A model generated the notes under the pieces. The model saw only the letters and a list, made by a program, of their open reading frames with translations. It made no database searches and was not told the origin of the DNA. From the IMG/VR virus record IMGVR_UViG_3300032287_001726, positions 1 to 33,856 of that record: a DNA stretch of 33,856 bases; one strand, 5' to 3'. Both the position numbers and the translations under genes were made by a program. Positions 21,335-24,482 of this stretch are shown here, piece by piece. Source of the DNA: a virus. The first letter of the stretch is position 1. Every line of letters starts with the position of its first letter.

Positions 21335-21474
21335 TGTTCATTTTCGTTTTTATCGTTTAAAAAATCTTCTCCTTTGTATTCCGGATGGTTTTCATTCATC
21401 CAGTCAATATGCCTTACCCACATCCAAGATAGGATGGCTAAAAAGCAAAAAAATATGAATCCAAAATAAATCAT
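21331..21474 (-). CDS. Micro-membrane protein (47 residues)
   Basis: A short frame from ATG (21472-21474 on the minus strand) encodes MIYFGFIFFCFLAILSWMWV, then a polar tail rich in Asn, Asp and Glu ending NENEQ. One membrane span fills residues 2-20. The start overlaps the stop of the OmpR-type gene by ATGA and its stop overlaps the next start by ATGA, strong evidence for a real translated gene despite the size. Function unknown. Confidence 0.6.
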   Translation of the reverse strand: MIYFGFIFFCFLAILSWMWVRHIDWMNENHPEYKGEDFLNDKNENEQ

Positions 21475-21716
21475 GGCTGATAAATGAAGCCGAATCCGCT
21501 TCGGTTTTTTATTGGTAAATTAGGTATCTTTTTTCGGAGGTTGAAGAGTTGCACGTCTAAAACCTTTAAATTCGTTTTTTGGTTTCCCCAAATGTTTGCA
21601 ACCGCCTCCTGCCGGGTTATAATTACATCGGGGTTTTTTATGAAGTAGGTTAATACTTCAAATTCAACTCTCGTTAATTTGATTCCGTTGTAGGTTTTTG
21701 TTGTGTTATCTATCAT
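21471..21716 (-). CDS. OmpR/PhoB-type winged helix protein without receiver domain
   Basis: From ATG at 21716 the protein is 81 residues: MIDNTTKTYNGIKLTRVEFE, then TYFIKNPDVIITRQEAVANI and VLDVQLFNLRKKIPN ending RSGFGFIYQP. This is the full effector domain of response regulators (LT..E..vL..l....g.vvtRe.l....W, ...vdv.i..LRkki, and G.GY-like hairpin). No phosphoacceptor domain precedes it. It should bind direct repeats and touch RNA polymerase; host-promoter mimicry or phage gene control are both possible. It overlaps the 51-residue membrane gene by 11 bases. Confidence 0.7.
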   Translation of the reverse strand: MIDNTTKTYNGIKLTRVEFEVLTYFIKNPDVIITRQEAVANIWGNQKTNLKVLDVQLFNLRKKIPNLPIKNRSGFGFIYQP

Positions 21717-21861
21717 AATCATCATTTTTAAATTCCATAATATAAGCCCTCCACCATTTGGAGAACTTGTCATTCGGATAGCTCATTGCATACGTTTCGC
21801 ACGCTACTATCGTAAGCAGCAAAACAATAACGATTGACATAATTAAAATAATTGGAAGCAT
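21706..21861 (-). CDS. Micro-membrane protein (51 residues)
   Basis: The frame MLPIILIMSIVIVLLLTIVA continues with CETYAMSYPNDKFSKWWRAY and ends EFKNDDYDR. Residues 2-20 form a membrane span. Cys21 in a I-V-A-C setting resembles a lipobox but there is no basic N-terminal region. It lies 10 bases after the VRR-NUC gene and overlaps the winged helix gene by 11 bases. Function unknown. Confidence 0.6.
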   Translation of the reverse strand: MLPIILIMSIVIVLLLTIVACETYAMSYPNDKFSKWWRAYIMEFKNDDYDR

Positions 21862-22125: not shown

Positions 22126-22221
22126 TTAAAAATTATGCCCGATTAATAAAAGGATTACAACTATCGCAATAAAAATGTGCGATTGCATTGGAGTCAAATC
22201 GTCTGATTGTTTTCTGTTCAT
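22126..22221 (-). CDS. Micro-membrane protein (31 residues)
   Basis: A 31-codon frame reads MNRKQSDDLTPMQSHIFIAI followed by VVILLLIGHNF. Residues 15-30 form a single membrane span after a polar start. It begins just after the hairpin at 22236-22265 and ends 2 bases before the VRR-NUC start. Length is too short for similarity-based calls; tight spacing supports translation. Function unknown. Confidence 0.5.
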   Translation of the reverse strand: MNRKQSDDLTPMQSHIFIAIVVILLLIGHNF

Positions 22222-22235
22222 GGCTGTTGATTTTA

Positions 22236-22265
22236 AAAAGGGGGCAAAGCCCCCGGGGGTTAATT
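22236..22265 (-). terminator. Intrinsic terminator, repeat copy 1
   Basis: On the minus strand GGGGGC-TTT-GCCCCC is followed by TTTTTAAAA, directly after the stop codon of the 22260-22466 gene. The 30-base sequence is identical to that at 22549-22578. Confidence 0.8.
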
Positions 22266-22466
22266 TAATTTATTGTTTTCGTTTTCTATTCTGCACATTT
22301 CATTTGCTAAATACAAACATAACATTGCTTTATTTTCGTTCCACTCTTTTGCTGTGATTCCTAATTTTTTTGCAGCGTTAATACATAATTTTCTGAATTC
22401 TACATTTTCAACTAAATCAGTTCTTCTTTTCATTTCTGATTCGATTGTGATAGTTTGATTTGTCAT
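22260..22466 (-). CDS. Small protein of unknown function (68 residues)
   Basis: The protein MTNQTITIESEMKRRTDLVE, continuing NVEFRKLCINAAKKLGITAK, is hydrophilic and helical with two Cys. ITAKEWNENKAMLCLYLANE near the end looks like a short helix pair. I do not recognise a family. It sits between a TATCTTTG promoter-like box and a terminator, so it is probably transcribed alone; the same cassette carries the 22577 gene. The coding sequences themselves share little beyond their first residues (MTN/MTT). Confidence 0.6.
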   Translation of the reverse strand: MTNQTITIESEMKRRTDLVENVEFRKLCINAAKKLGITAKEWNENKAMLCLYLANEMCRIENENNKLN

Positions 22467-22549
22467 GGCTTTTTTGTTTTGTTACACAAAGATAAATTAA
22501 ATTTTAATAAAAAAAACTTTTTTACTAATTTTTTTTAAAAATATTTTTA
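22464..22549 (-). promoter_or_regulatory. Promoter-leader repeat, copy 1
   Basis: Reading towards the gene, this 86-base AT-rich stretch has a TATCTTTG box (22487-22494) matching the Bacteroidota -7 consensus TAnnTTTG, followed by GTAACAAAACAAAAAAGCC and ATG. It is almost identical to 22898-22985. A clear -33 TTTG box is not visible; poly-T lies in that position. Confidence 0.65.
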
Positions 22550-22578
22550 AAAGGGGGCAAAGCCCCCGGGGGTTAATT
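22549..22578 (-). terminator. Intrinsic terminator, repeat copy 2
   Basis: Identical 30-base hairpin to 22236-22265, here directly following the stop of the 22577-22900 gene and feeding into the promoter region of the next cassette. Confidence 0.8.
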
Positions 22579-22900
22579 ATAAATATTGATTATAAGCGTC
22601 AGGATATTCATCATAAAAACTATCTGATGTACATACGCTTTTAACTTTGCTTATTTTTTTCAAATTAGCAATTATATCATCAGATTTTTTTTCTGAATTT
22701 ACTTCCCTATTAAGGGAAGCTAATGAAAAATATTCGTAACCTTTAGATTCCATACTATCAATAAAAAATTCAGATACGCAAATAATTTCATTAAAATTAT
22801 TTTTTTGCATAAAATAATCCCCGCATCCTGAATTAAATGCAGCTTCTAATTTACTTGAAATTGACTTCTGAAATTCGTTTGTAATTTGTTTTGTTGTCAT
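22577..22900 (-). CDS. Small protein of unknown function (107 residues)
   Basis: MTTKQITNEFQKSISSKLEA begins a protein with SGCGDYFMQKNNFNEIICVS and FFIDSMESKGYEYFSLASLN, then a Lys/Ser-rich region with KKISKVKSVCTSDSF. It has three Cys, a short helical start and no membrane segment. The pattern SxKLExAFNxGxGxYF is unfamiliar to me as a named family. It is a single-gene unit bounded by the second promoter-leader copy and a terminator, hence likely to be separately regulated. Confidence 0.6.
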   Translation of the reverse strand: MTTKQITNEFQKSISSKLEAAFNSGCGDYFMQKNNFNEIICVSEFFIDSMESKGYEYFSLASLNREVNSEKKSDDIIANLKKISKVKSVCTSDSFYDEYPDAYNQYL

Positions 22901-22985
22901 GGCTTTTTTGTTTTGTTACACAAAGATAAACTAATTTTTAATAAAAAAAACTTTTTTAGTAATTTTTTTTAAAAATATTTTTTTA
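22898..22985 (-). promoter_or_regulatory. Promoter-leader repeat, copy 2
   Basis: TATCTTTG (22921-22928 on the minus strand) and the same downstream leader and start codon context as copy 1. The A/T tracts upstream are also shared. Only a few bases differ, so the duplication is probably recent or kept by selection. Confidence 0.65.
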
Positions 22986-23022: not shown

Positions 23023-23235
23023 TTACCCACGTAGCAACCGTTTAATGGCTCGTAAATCTTCTGCTTTTTTTCGCAGCAGTTCAATGACTTTACTTTTATC
23101 TTGCAATTTCTCGCTTTCATATTCTAATAACAAATCTTTTGTCATTTTACGAAGCTGTTTATCTGTCAATGTTTTGTCTTTGTATAAGCGAAAAATCTTA
23201 GTCGCCATTATACCTGTTGTGTCTTTGTATATCAT
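23023..23235 (-). CDS. Small basic helical protein
   Basis: The 70-residue frame reads MIYKDTTGIMATKIFRLYKD, then KTLTDKQLRKMTKDLLLEYE and IELLRKKAEDLRAIKRLLRG. It is strongly helical with alternating charge, perhaps a coiled coil. The true start may be the internal ATG at 23208. It follows helicase 1 by 11 bases and probably ends that operon. No function is recognised. Confidence 0.55.
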   Translation of the reverse strand: MIYKDTTGIMATKIFRLYKDKTLTDKQLRKMTKDLLLEYESEKLQDKSKVIELLRKKAEDLRAIKRLLRG

Positions 23236-23246
23236 ATAATTTATTT

Positions 23247-24482
23247 TTACTCAATCCCATACTCATTCTTAAAATAGCTCAAAGTATAATCTTTTTTATC
23301 CTTTACAGCCTTGTATATCTTCTCCTCAATCCCGCCTTCGGCAAATAGCCAGTACACCTTTGATGCCTCCTCCCGGTCTTTATTCTGCATCCGTGCTCTT
23401 GCCTGCCAGTACGATACGGCGCTGAAGTCAATATTAAGCATAATAAGGGCGTCGGCGGTGCTTAAGTTAATACCTTCACGCCCGGATTGAATTTGCGAAA
23501 GAAACCACTTATTATCACTCCCGGCGAACTCCTGCGGGTCGGTCGTGAATTTATCATATCCAAAAGTTAAATGAAGCATAAGCTCTTCGGCTTTGTATTT
23601 ATAAAAGATAGCTATCTTTTTACCTTTAAAATTCTCCTTAATCCAGTAAGCCTTTGAGCGGTCGAATATTACGCCCTCTTCTTTTTCATCTATTACCGTT
23701 CCGGTATAAACCTGATGCAGCTTGCTGAGTAACTTTGCCCCGGTATCCGCTAAAATTACGTTCCCATCCCGCCCGGTGTAAACCCGCTCCTTTTTCAATT
23801 TATCCGCTAAGTAATAGGTTGCACCTTGCATCTTTATTCCGATAGTTATTTCATCAACCTCCGCCATGAACCCCGCCTCCTGCTGGGTGAAAGGGATAAT
23901 TAAATGATCCGTCATTTGTTTGATTTTTGTTTGGTTTGCGTTTGAGTAATCGTTTACTTTTAAGCCTTTAAAATATTTGAGCTGAATATCCACATAATCC
24001 TTTGCCCATTTGTAAAAGTTCACATAATCTTTGAACGGACTAAATGAACTAATATAAAACTGGTGAAATATCTGGGAGTAACTCTCCGGCGTTGGGGTGC
24101 CGCTTAAATAGATAATCGACTTGCCTTTACATAATTCTTTCAGCTTTTTAACCCTTTGCGCTGGCTTAGGATATTGCCCCAACCCATGCGCTTCGTCGCA
24201 AATCACAATATCAAAAGGCTGCTTTACGTGGTGGATATTCTCATAGTTTGTTACGATAATATCCGCTTTTAATCCTAACTGCTTATGGTCTTCCAATATG
24301 CCGCTTATTACCTTTTTCTTAGTCAAAAATAAAATAACGCCTGCCCCTATTTTATCTGCAGTTAATAAAGCCGTGACGGTCTTGCCACAACGTACCTGCA
24401 TGGCTAAATAAACTAAGCCGTGTTGCTTAATGATGTCGGCGGCTTTGTCGCTTATTGATATTTGGTAGGGGCGGGGTTGCAT
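23247..24482 (-). CDS. SF2 helicase 1 (DEAH)
   Basis: The 411-residue ATPase has an N-terminal RPYQ motif (residues 4-7), Walker A QVRCGKT (29-35), DEAH (96-99), SGTPTP motif III (127-132), and C-terminal GREGINLSTADALIM plus YWQARARMQNKDRE as motifs V and VI. This is a compact phage SF2/SNF2-like helicase. It probably remodels or unwinds replication intermediates with the nucleases encoded nearby. The DNA is G+C-richer (30 of 60 bases at 23341-23400) than the two upstream genes. Start and the MTase stop share TAATG (24480-24484). Confidence 0.85.
   Translation of the reverse strand: MQPRPYQISISDKAADIIKQHGLVYLAMQVRCGKTVTALLTADKIGAGVILFLTKKKVISGILEDHKQLGLKADIIVTNYENIHHVKQPFDIVICDEAHGLGQYPKPAQRVKKLKELCKGKSIIYLSGTPTPESYSQIFHQFYISSFSPFKDYVNFYKWAKDYVDIQLKYFKGLKVNDYSNANQTKIKQMTDHLIIPFTQQEAGFMAEVDEITIGIKMQGATYYLADKLKKERVYTGRDGNVILADTGAKLLSKLHQVYTGTVIDEKEEGVIFDRSKAYWIKENFKGKKIAIFYKYKAEELMLHLTFGYDKFTTDPQEFAGSDNKWFLSQIQSGREGINLSTADALIMLNIDFSAVSYWQARARMQNKDREEASKVYWLFAEGGIEEKIYKAVKDKKDYTLSYFKNEYGIE

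Follow-up and report, generated by a model that had tools for sequence, protein, structure and literature searches.

A putative slot for the exchange of single-gene expression cassettes in a virus of Bacteroidota-phage type

Two small-gene cassettes lie in tandem in the virus record analysed here (the window, a single record of 33,856 bases). They most probably occupy an exchange slot for single-gene expression cassettes of a Bacteroidota phage, a reading to which we assign a probability of roughly 0.83. The cassette unit would consist of a TAnnTTTG promoter, an A-rich untranslated leader of about 20 nt ending in AGCC-ATG-ACA, a small open reading frame (ORF) and, in most cases, a strong hairpin terminator. 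Direct evidence of exchange comes from the cargo genes, whose identity in related viruses is far above that of their flanks; this supports the swap-in cassette suggested in a preliminary description of this DNA. A Bacteroidota host is suggested by the promoter class as well as by the phages that carry relatives of one of the two cargo proteins.

Anatomy of the two cassettes

The plus strand of the window carries the structural genes (terminase, portal, tape-measure-like), and a minus-strand gene group harbors helicase, methylase and exonuclease genes together with small genes, both cassettes among them. The terminase bears only a distant likeness to any phage record, the nearest being those of non-T4 phages. 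The coordinates first given for repeats and cassettes proved correct, all elements being located on the minus strand:

23247..24482, minus strand: SNF2/ResIII-type helicase gene, conserved anchor on the upstream side of the slot
23023..23235, minus strand: 70-aa ORF between the helicase gene and cassette A
22901..22985, minus strand: promoter-leader of cassette A, putative -7 element TATCTTTG at 22928-22921, 5' untranslated region A-rich and without Shine-Dalgarno sequence
22577..22900, minus strand: cargo A, 107-aa ORF, predicted alpha/beta fold (AF2, pLDDT 76)
22549..22578, minus strand: putative terminator hairpin for cassette A, forming a composite terminator-promoter junction with the directly adjoining promoter of cassette B
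22467..22549, minus strand: promoter-leader of cassette B, putative -7 element TATCTTTG at 22494-22487
22260..22466, minus strand: cargo B, 68-aa ORF, predicted three-helix fold (AF2, pLDDT 88)
22236..22265, minus strand: putative terminator hairpin of cassette B, with the same sequence as in cassette A
22126..22221, minus strand: conserved 31-aa single-transmembrane ORF (MNRKQSDDLTPMQSHIFIAIVVILLLIGHNF), the cassette being inserted directly 5' of its start codon
21872..22123, minus strand: VRR-NUC nuclease gene, conserved anchor on the downstream side of the slot

The repetition is evident as a direct repeat of 110 nt (22439-22548 and 22873-22982, 90% identical) and as a second repeat of 49 nt, which contains the terminator (22230-22278 and 22543-22591, 88%). 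The 30-base terminator sequence occurs twice, as described before, and in identical form (22236-22265 and 22549-22578, AATTAACCCCCGGGGGCTTTGCCCCCTTTT). For the two leaders of about 85 nt the earlier wording was nearly or fully identical, of which the former holds and the latter does not: the copies differ by few substitutions and in length, both confined to the A+T-rich upstream half, and share an identical 3' part of 31 nt, TATCTTTGTGTAACAAAACAAAAAAGCCATG. The longest exact repeat in the window measures 37 nt; in 100 first-order Markov simulations it averaged 15.4 nt and never exceeded 19. The leader used as query retrieves its second copy at E = 3e-39. Two leader copies are present in the window and none to two in each related contig. 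The G+C content is 25–27% in ORFs A and B, 41% and 46% in the two anchor genes next to them, and 31–35% in some further genes nearby.

TAnnTTTG is the -7 element recognized by the housekeeping sigma factor of Bacteroidota (PMC6847099), and TATCTTTG, located 20 nt 5' of each ATG, fits this consensus. A -33 TTTG is visible in promoter allele 2 only and is missing from allele 1 of the window; in F. johnsoniae the -33 element is generally weak (PMC6847099). The A-rich leader AACAAAACAAAAAAGCC-ATG is unsurprising, since Bacteroidota mRNAs are devoid of Shine-Dalgarno sequences and favour certain A residues 5' of the start codon (PMC6847099). The match to a host-type promoter would suggest early transcription by the host RNA polymerase.

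Downstream of each cargo ORF, GGGGGC-TTT-GCCCCC followed by TTTT would fold into a hairpin with a 6-bp stem, a 3-nt loop and a U-rich 3' side (-12.6 kcal/mol), which has the shape of an intrinsic terminator. Its z-score is only -1.4 to -1.5, a modest value since shuffles of an equally G+C-rich stretch fold as well. In the relatives the loop (TTT, AAA, AAT, TTA or ACT) and the arm lengths vary while pairing is maintained; the hairpin of contig L030 is longer (GGGGGGCAATTTGTCCCCCCC). The hairpin alone was rejected as a marker, as a terminator-plus-CCATG scan of viral contigs matched only unrelated phages outside the group. Rfam matched no element around the cassettes.

Further downstream on the minus strand (21471-21773), a 100-aa ORF without receiver domain matches Trans_reg_C (E 9e-12), the DNA-binding domain at the C-terminus of response regulators, and is a candidate regulator of the minus-strand gene group.

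The slot in related viruses

Relatives were located by the helicase (32 loci), the nuclease (17) and a 23-mer of the leader (22 stretches), and the stretch between the anchors, or its available part, was compared across 29 contigs belonging to this virus group. Leader matches in L048, L051, L052 and L053 differ in the upstream half of the promoter and were left out of the slot count. In 84,980 bacterial and archaeal genomes the 23-mer hit one contig, L054, filed as a scaffold of Nostoc linckia z4. This 5-kb scaffold of a cyanobacterial assembly combines the Bacteroidota-type leader with an ORF of virus contig L051 in a different context and is probably a contaminant.

The distance from helicase to VRR-NUC gene ranges from 164 nt (L033) to 2.3 kb. 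At empty sites (L033, L025, L024 and L021/L023) a promoter with an A-rich leader is positioned directly 5' of a 30–31-aa ORF with a single membrane span, followed by the nuclease gene. Filled sites comprise leader, ATG, cargo, usually a terminator, and a new ribosome-binding stretch (e.g. ACAGCC or CCTAAACC) in front of the 30–31-aa ORF. The 31-aa ORF adjoins the VRR-NUC gene in nearly all relatives, whether a cassette is present or absent. Leaders of empty sites differ from each other, except for L021/L023, whereas those of filled sites are almost invariant, which argues that the leader travels with the cargo.

The preliminary description regarded cargo and repeats invariant in all relatives as evidence against exchange. 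Instead, at least 14 small-gene families without mutual similarity at E < 0.001 are found at this site in the 29 contigs, nearly all behind the common leader (some cargo of L030 and L019 follows a different one) and most before the common type of terminator (the filled sites of L031 and L057 lack a clear one):

Families A and B: window
Family C: L004, L010, L011 and L031
Family D: L017, L018 and L027
Family E: L019 and L020
Family F: L026 and L028
Family G: L035
Family H: L036
Family I: L038
Family J: L012 and L044
Family K: L010
Single families: L057, L058 and L064

The similarity of families I and J is borderline (E 0.002–0.003), so that the count could drop to 13. The observed richness is a lower bound, with a Chao1 estimate of about 22 families (8 singletons, 4 doubletons). 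Tandem promoter-ORF-terminator units are observed in the window (A, B), in L010 (K, C) and in L058, and the terminator abutting the next promoter (22467-22578 in the window) recurs in the latter two.

Comparison of nucleotide identities reveals a consistent discrepancy between cargo and flanks. Cargo D is 99.6% identical between L017 and L027, versus 76.7% each for helicase and VRR-NUC genes; the corresponding values are 95.5% versus 71.5 and 71.1% for cargo F, 90.6% versus 75.1 and 71.1% for cargo J, 99.0% versus 86.5 and 74.7% for cargo E and 94.4% versus 85.6 and 79.9% for cargo C. On the upstream side the alignments end within the leader or immediately 5' of it, on the downstream side within the terminator or immediately 3' of it. 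Cargo C is preceded by promoter allele 1 in L004 and L010 and by allele 2 in L011, and cargo E is found behind two different promoters. Every cargo pair tested has a dN/dS of 0.12–0.25 (pooled pN/pS 0.28, codon-aligned), and this purifying selection indicates that the cargo ORFs encode real proteins.

In the best surviving alternative, which retains a small chance of being correct, there is no exchange of cassettes: leader and terminator would be kept for regulation at an old operon position and the cargo would turn over by unrelated illegitimate recombination. Some breakpoints indeed lie near the start codon, away from the leader's outer ends; the upstream half of the slot also acquires unrelated ORFs and a tRNA-like RNA without any leader. 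This reading is difficult to reconcile with leaders that diverge at empty sites and are near-identical at filled sites across backbones of 70–77% identity, or with the leader-plus-cargo block that L017 and L027 share in nearly identical form.

Movement of the cassettes by a dedicated mobile element or site-specific recombinase, integron- or homing-like, appears improbable. It would account for the constant insertion position immediately 5' of the ATG of the 31-aa ORF, and a nuclease gene, VRR-NUC, is the immediate neighbour. That gene is, however, present at empty sites too, no integrase, transposase or homing endonuclease was found among the slot proteins scanned, and the hairpins vary in loop and arm length as terminators do.

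Slightly less credible still is the suggestion that the discordant combinations of cargo and backbone are chimeric metagenome assemblies, joined at leader and terminator, which are repeats of 30–90 nt. All slot relatives are metagenome contigs, as this explanation needs. Yet six of the cargo families are each found in more than one backbone, and contigs sharing a cargo come for the most part from separate metagenomes. Within one family, the cargo diverges by as much as about 30% from backbone to backbone, as expected for real lineages, and the tandem arrangement is seen in three contigs with different cargo. A general artefact of this kind is unlikely given the recurrence across metagenomes; individual joins may still be chimeric.

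According to the preferred reading, an exchange slot, incoming cassettes would be acquired by homologous recombination with the shared leader and terminator as homology arms, and the repeated ribosome-binding site and ATG of the downstream 31-aa membrane-peptide gene could provide a further arm. On arrival, any cargo would thus be under a promoter that the host RNA polymerase can use without modification, and would be insulated from the surrounding operon. Unequal exchange between copies would generate tandem arrays such as the A-B pair of the window.

The upstream part of the gap between helicase and VRR-NUC genes is variable in the relatives, with other ORFs, methyltransferase-like ORFs and a tRNA-like RNA. 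Larger ORFs, which by eye look DNA methyltransferase-like, are located before or after the cassette in L011, L018, L028, L031, L032/L034, L036 and L038; their presence beside the small-gene cassette suggests that the whole gap is an accessory hotspot. A second position just 3' of the terminator harbors small hydrophobic, probably membrane proteins after a copy of the ribosome-binding site and ATG (ACAGCCATG), namely in L004, L010 and L064 (MPTIIPIPTSG..., 85 aa) and in L019 (MPKYIHLS..., 79 aa).

The tRNA-like RNA of about 90 nt is found 3' of the helicase gene in L027 (7246-7335), L019 (1763-1853), L011 (1680-1768) and nine more contigs, and is not present in the window. It displays a 7-bp acceptor stem, a canonical T arm, a long variable arm and an odd D/anticodon part, in which a 4-bp arm (GTGG/CCAC or CCGG/CCGG, compensatory) encloses the loop GAATRAATA. 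ARAGORN proposes a two-base anticodon, Lys(CTT) or Leu(CAA), and Rfam accepts solely the copy of L019. It is possibly a tRNA decoy or a non-canonical tRNA.

Cargo proteins and their possible role

For cargo A, searches of viral contigs, phage records, Pfam and PHROGs detected no relatives (the best PHROG match has an E of 0.029), and PDB fold searches with the predicted structures of A and B gave no match. Pfam and PHROGs provided no usable assignment for cargo B or for 10 other cargo proteins. The L057 cargo has a weak PHROG match (E 3e-4) to a family without known function, and it also accounts for the single weak match of the concatenated cargo to phage records.

Relatives of cargo B, in contrast to A, are found in 22 viral contigs, including L030, as well as in Tenacibaculum phage pT24 and Cellulophaga phage phi46:1, where the B-like region is the C-terminal part of the 134-aa protein gp50; identities in other phages are 34–70%. 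A TAnnTTTG motif is located no more than 60 nt upstream in 13 of 14 distinct B-relative contexts (the slot of L030 being one of them) as opposed to 6 of 106 other ORFs from nine of these loci (Fisher P 4e-12). Contexts from one phage group are only partly independent, and these same upstream stretches had given rise to the idea. B relatives would thus repeatedly occupy the first position after a promoter of host type, which fits an early gene. A hairpin directly follows most of them. In L093 the leader-ATG stretch is repeated 5' of the gene after the B relative, and in L101/L102 the B relative precedes a small membrane-span ORF resembling that of the window.

The least probable alternative, named in the preliminary description as a second reading that would count against a swap-in cassette, is that A and B are one gene duplicated together with its control regions and then diverged. 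It could explain the tandem control regions and the common MT[TN] start of both proteins, but it is already largely refuted by the complete lack of a BLASTP alignment between them, the differing predicted folds, the relatives found for B and not for A, and the many further unrelated cargo genes behind the same leader.

A more tentative extension of the exchange-slot reading is that the cargo may comprise early host-directed proteins, e.g. counter-defence or takeover factors, and that the diversifying pressure of variable hosts may keep the slot polymorphic. A role in counter-defence is plausible, with about even odds. We consider it somewhat doubtful, though worth stating, that a cassette format of TAnnTTTG promoter, A-rich leader, small ORF and hairpin is general among Bacteroidota phages and serves them in trading early genes for counter-defence. 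The B family, whose 13 promoter-proximal contexts span several phage groups, would then be a widespread early host-takeover or counter-defence protein.

Relation to known systems and implications

Promoter-early/stem-loop composite motifs (PeSLs) were reportedly described in T4-type phages by Arbiol et al. 2010 and Comeau et al. 2014. PeSLs are repeated units of early promoter and terminator stem-loop between small ORFans and are described as a means of gene shuffling between related phages (PMC4503421). The window resembles them in its composite of promoter and stem-loop between small genes, terminator A abutting promoter B at 22467-22578, and in the exchange of cargo between related phages, here with breakpoints that fall within the leader at one end and within the terminator or immediately 3' of it at the other. 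It differs from PeSLs in being a non-T4 record of about 34 kb and of Bacteroidota type with a TAnnTTTG promoter, in using one locus with one or two copies instead of many, and in its insertion point, the start codon of a conserved gene for a 31-aa membrane peptide. The cassettes thus appear to work like a PeSL without being classed as one, given the T4-type, many-copy setting of PeSLs.

Morons of lambdoid and other temperate phages are extra genes with their own promoter and terminator, situated between genes that are neighbours in relatives, and have an aberrant base composition. The moron-like character proposed earlier for the cassettes is borne out at the sequence level: a promoter and terminator of their own are recognizable, they are inserted between genes that adjoin at the empty sites described above, and the G+C content of ORFs A and B deviates from that of the anchor genes. 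Unlike in morons, the control regions are common to many cargo genes and the site is a recurrent slot.

In archaeal viruses many small unrelated genes are each preceded by a near-identical strong promoter; two anti-defence genes among them have been validated, and the early regulatory sequence has been proposed as bait for finding more of that kind (PMC11065993). A common promoter in front of many unrelated small genes is likewise seen here, across the relatives and twice in the window. The archaeal copies, however, are scattered over one genome and contain TATA/BRE promoters (PMC11065993), whereas here the diversity lies between relatives at one slot and a terminator is included. The SAS/ESAS of cluster K mycobacteriophages, a 13-bp element in 11–19 copies per genome, is thought to act in translation initiation (PMC3203893); it is similar as a conserved short sequence just 5' of the start codons of different non-structural genes, and dissimilar in that SAS carries neither promoter nor terminator.

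PeSL- and moron-like anatomy is therefore already known; what is new is the Bacteroidota promoter, the non-T4 phage, the single locus and the insertion at the start codon of a mini-gene. With its breakpoints, the arrangement is evidence from natural sequences that gene exchange between non-T4 phages goes along with short shared control regions. Little is known of the counter-defence genes in Bacteroidota phages, which are too small and diverse for detection by homology. A constant leader with changing cargo permits a homology-free listing of candidates, and the 23-mer scan together with two anchor genes yielded 14 ORFan families. If the general cassette format holds true, the remaining cargo genes could be collected with each phage group's own leader as bait. 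The slot has the appearance of a ready-made socket in which these phages may trade early-acting genes.
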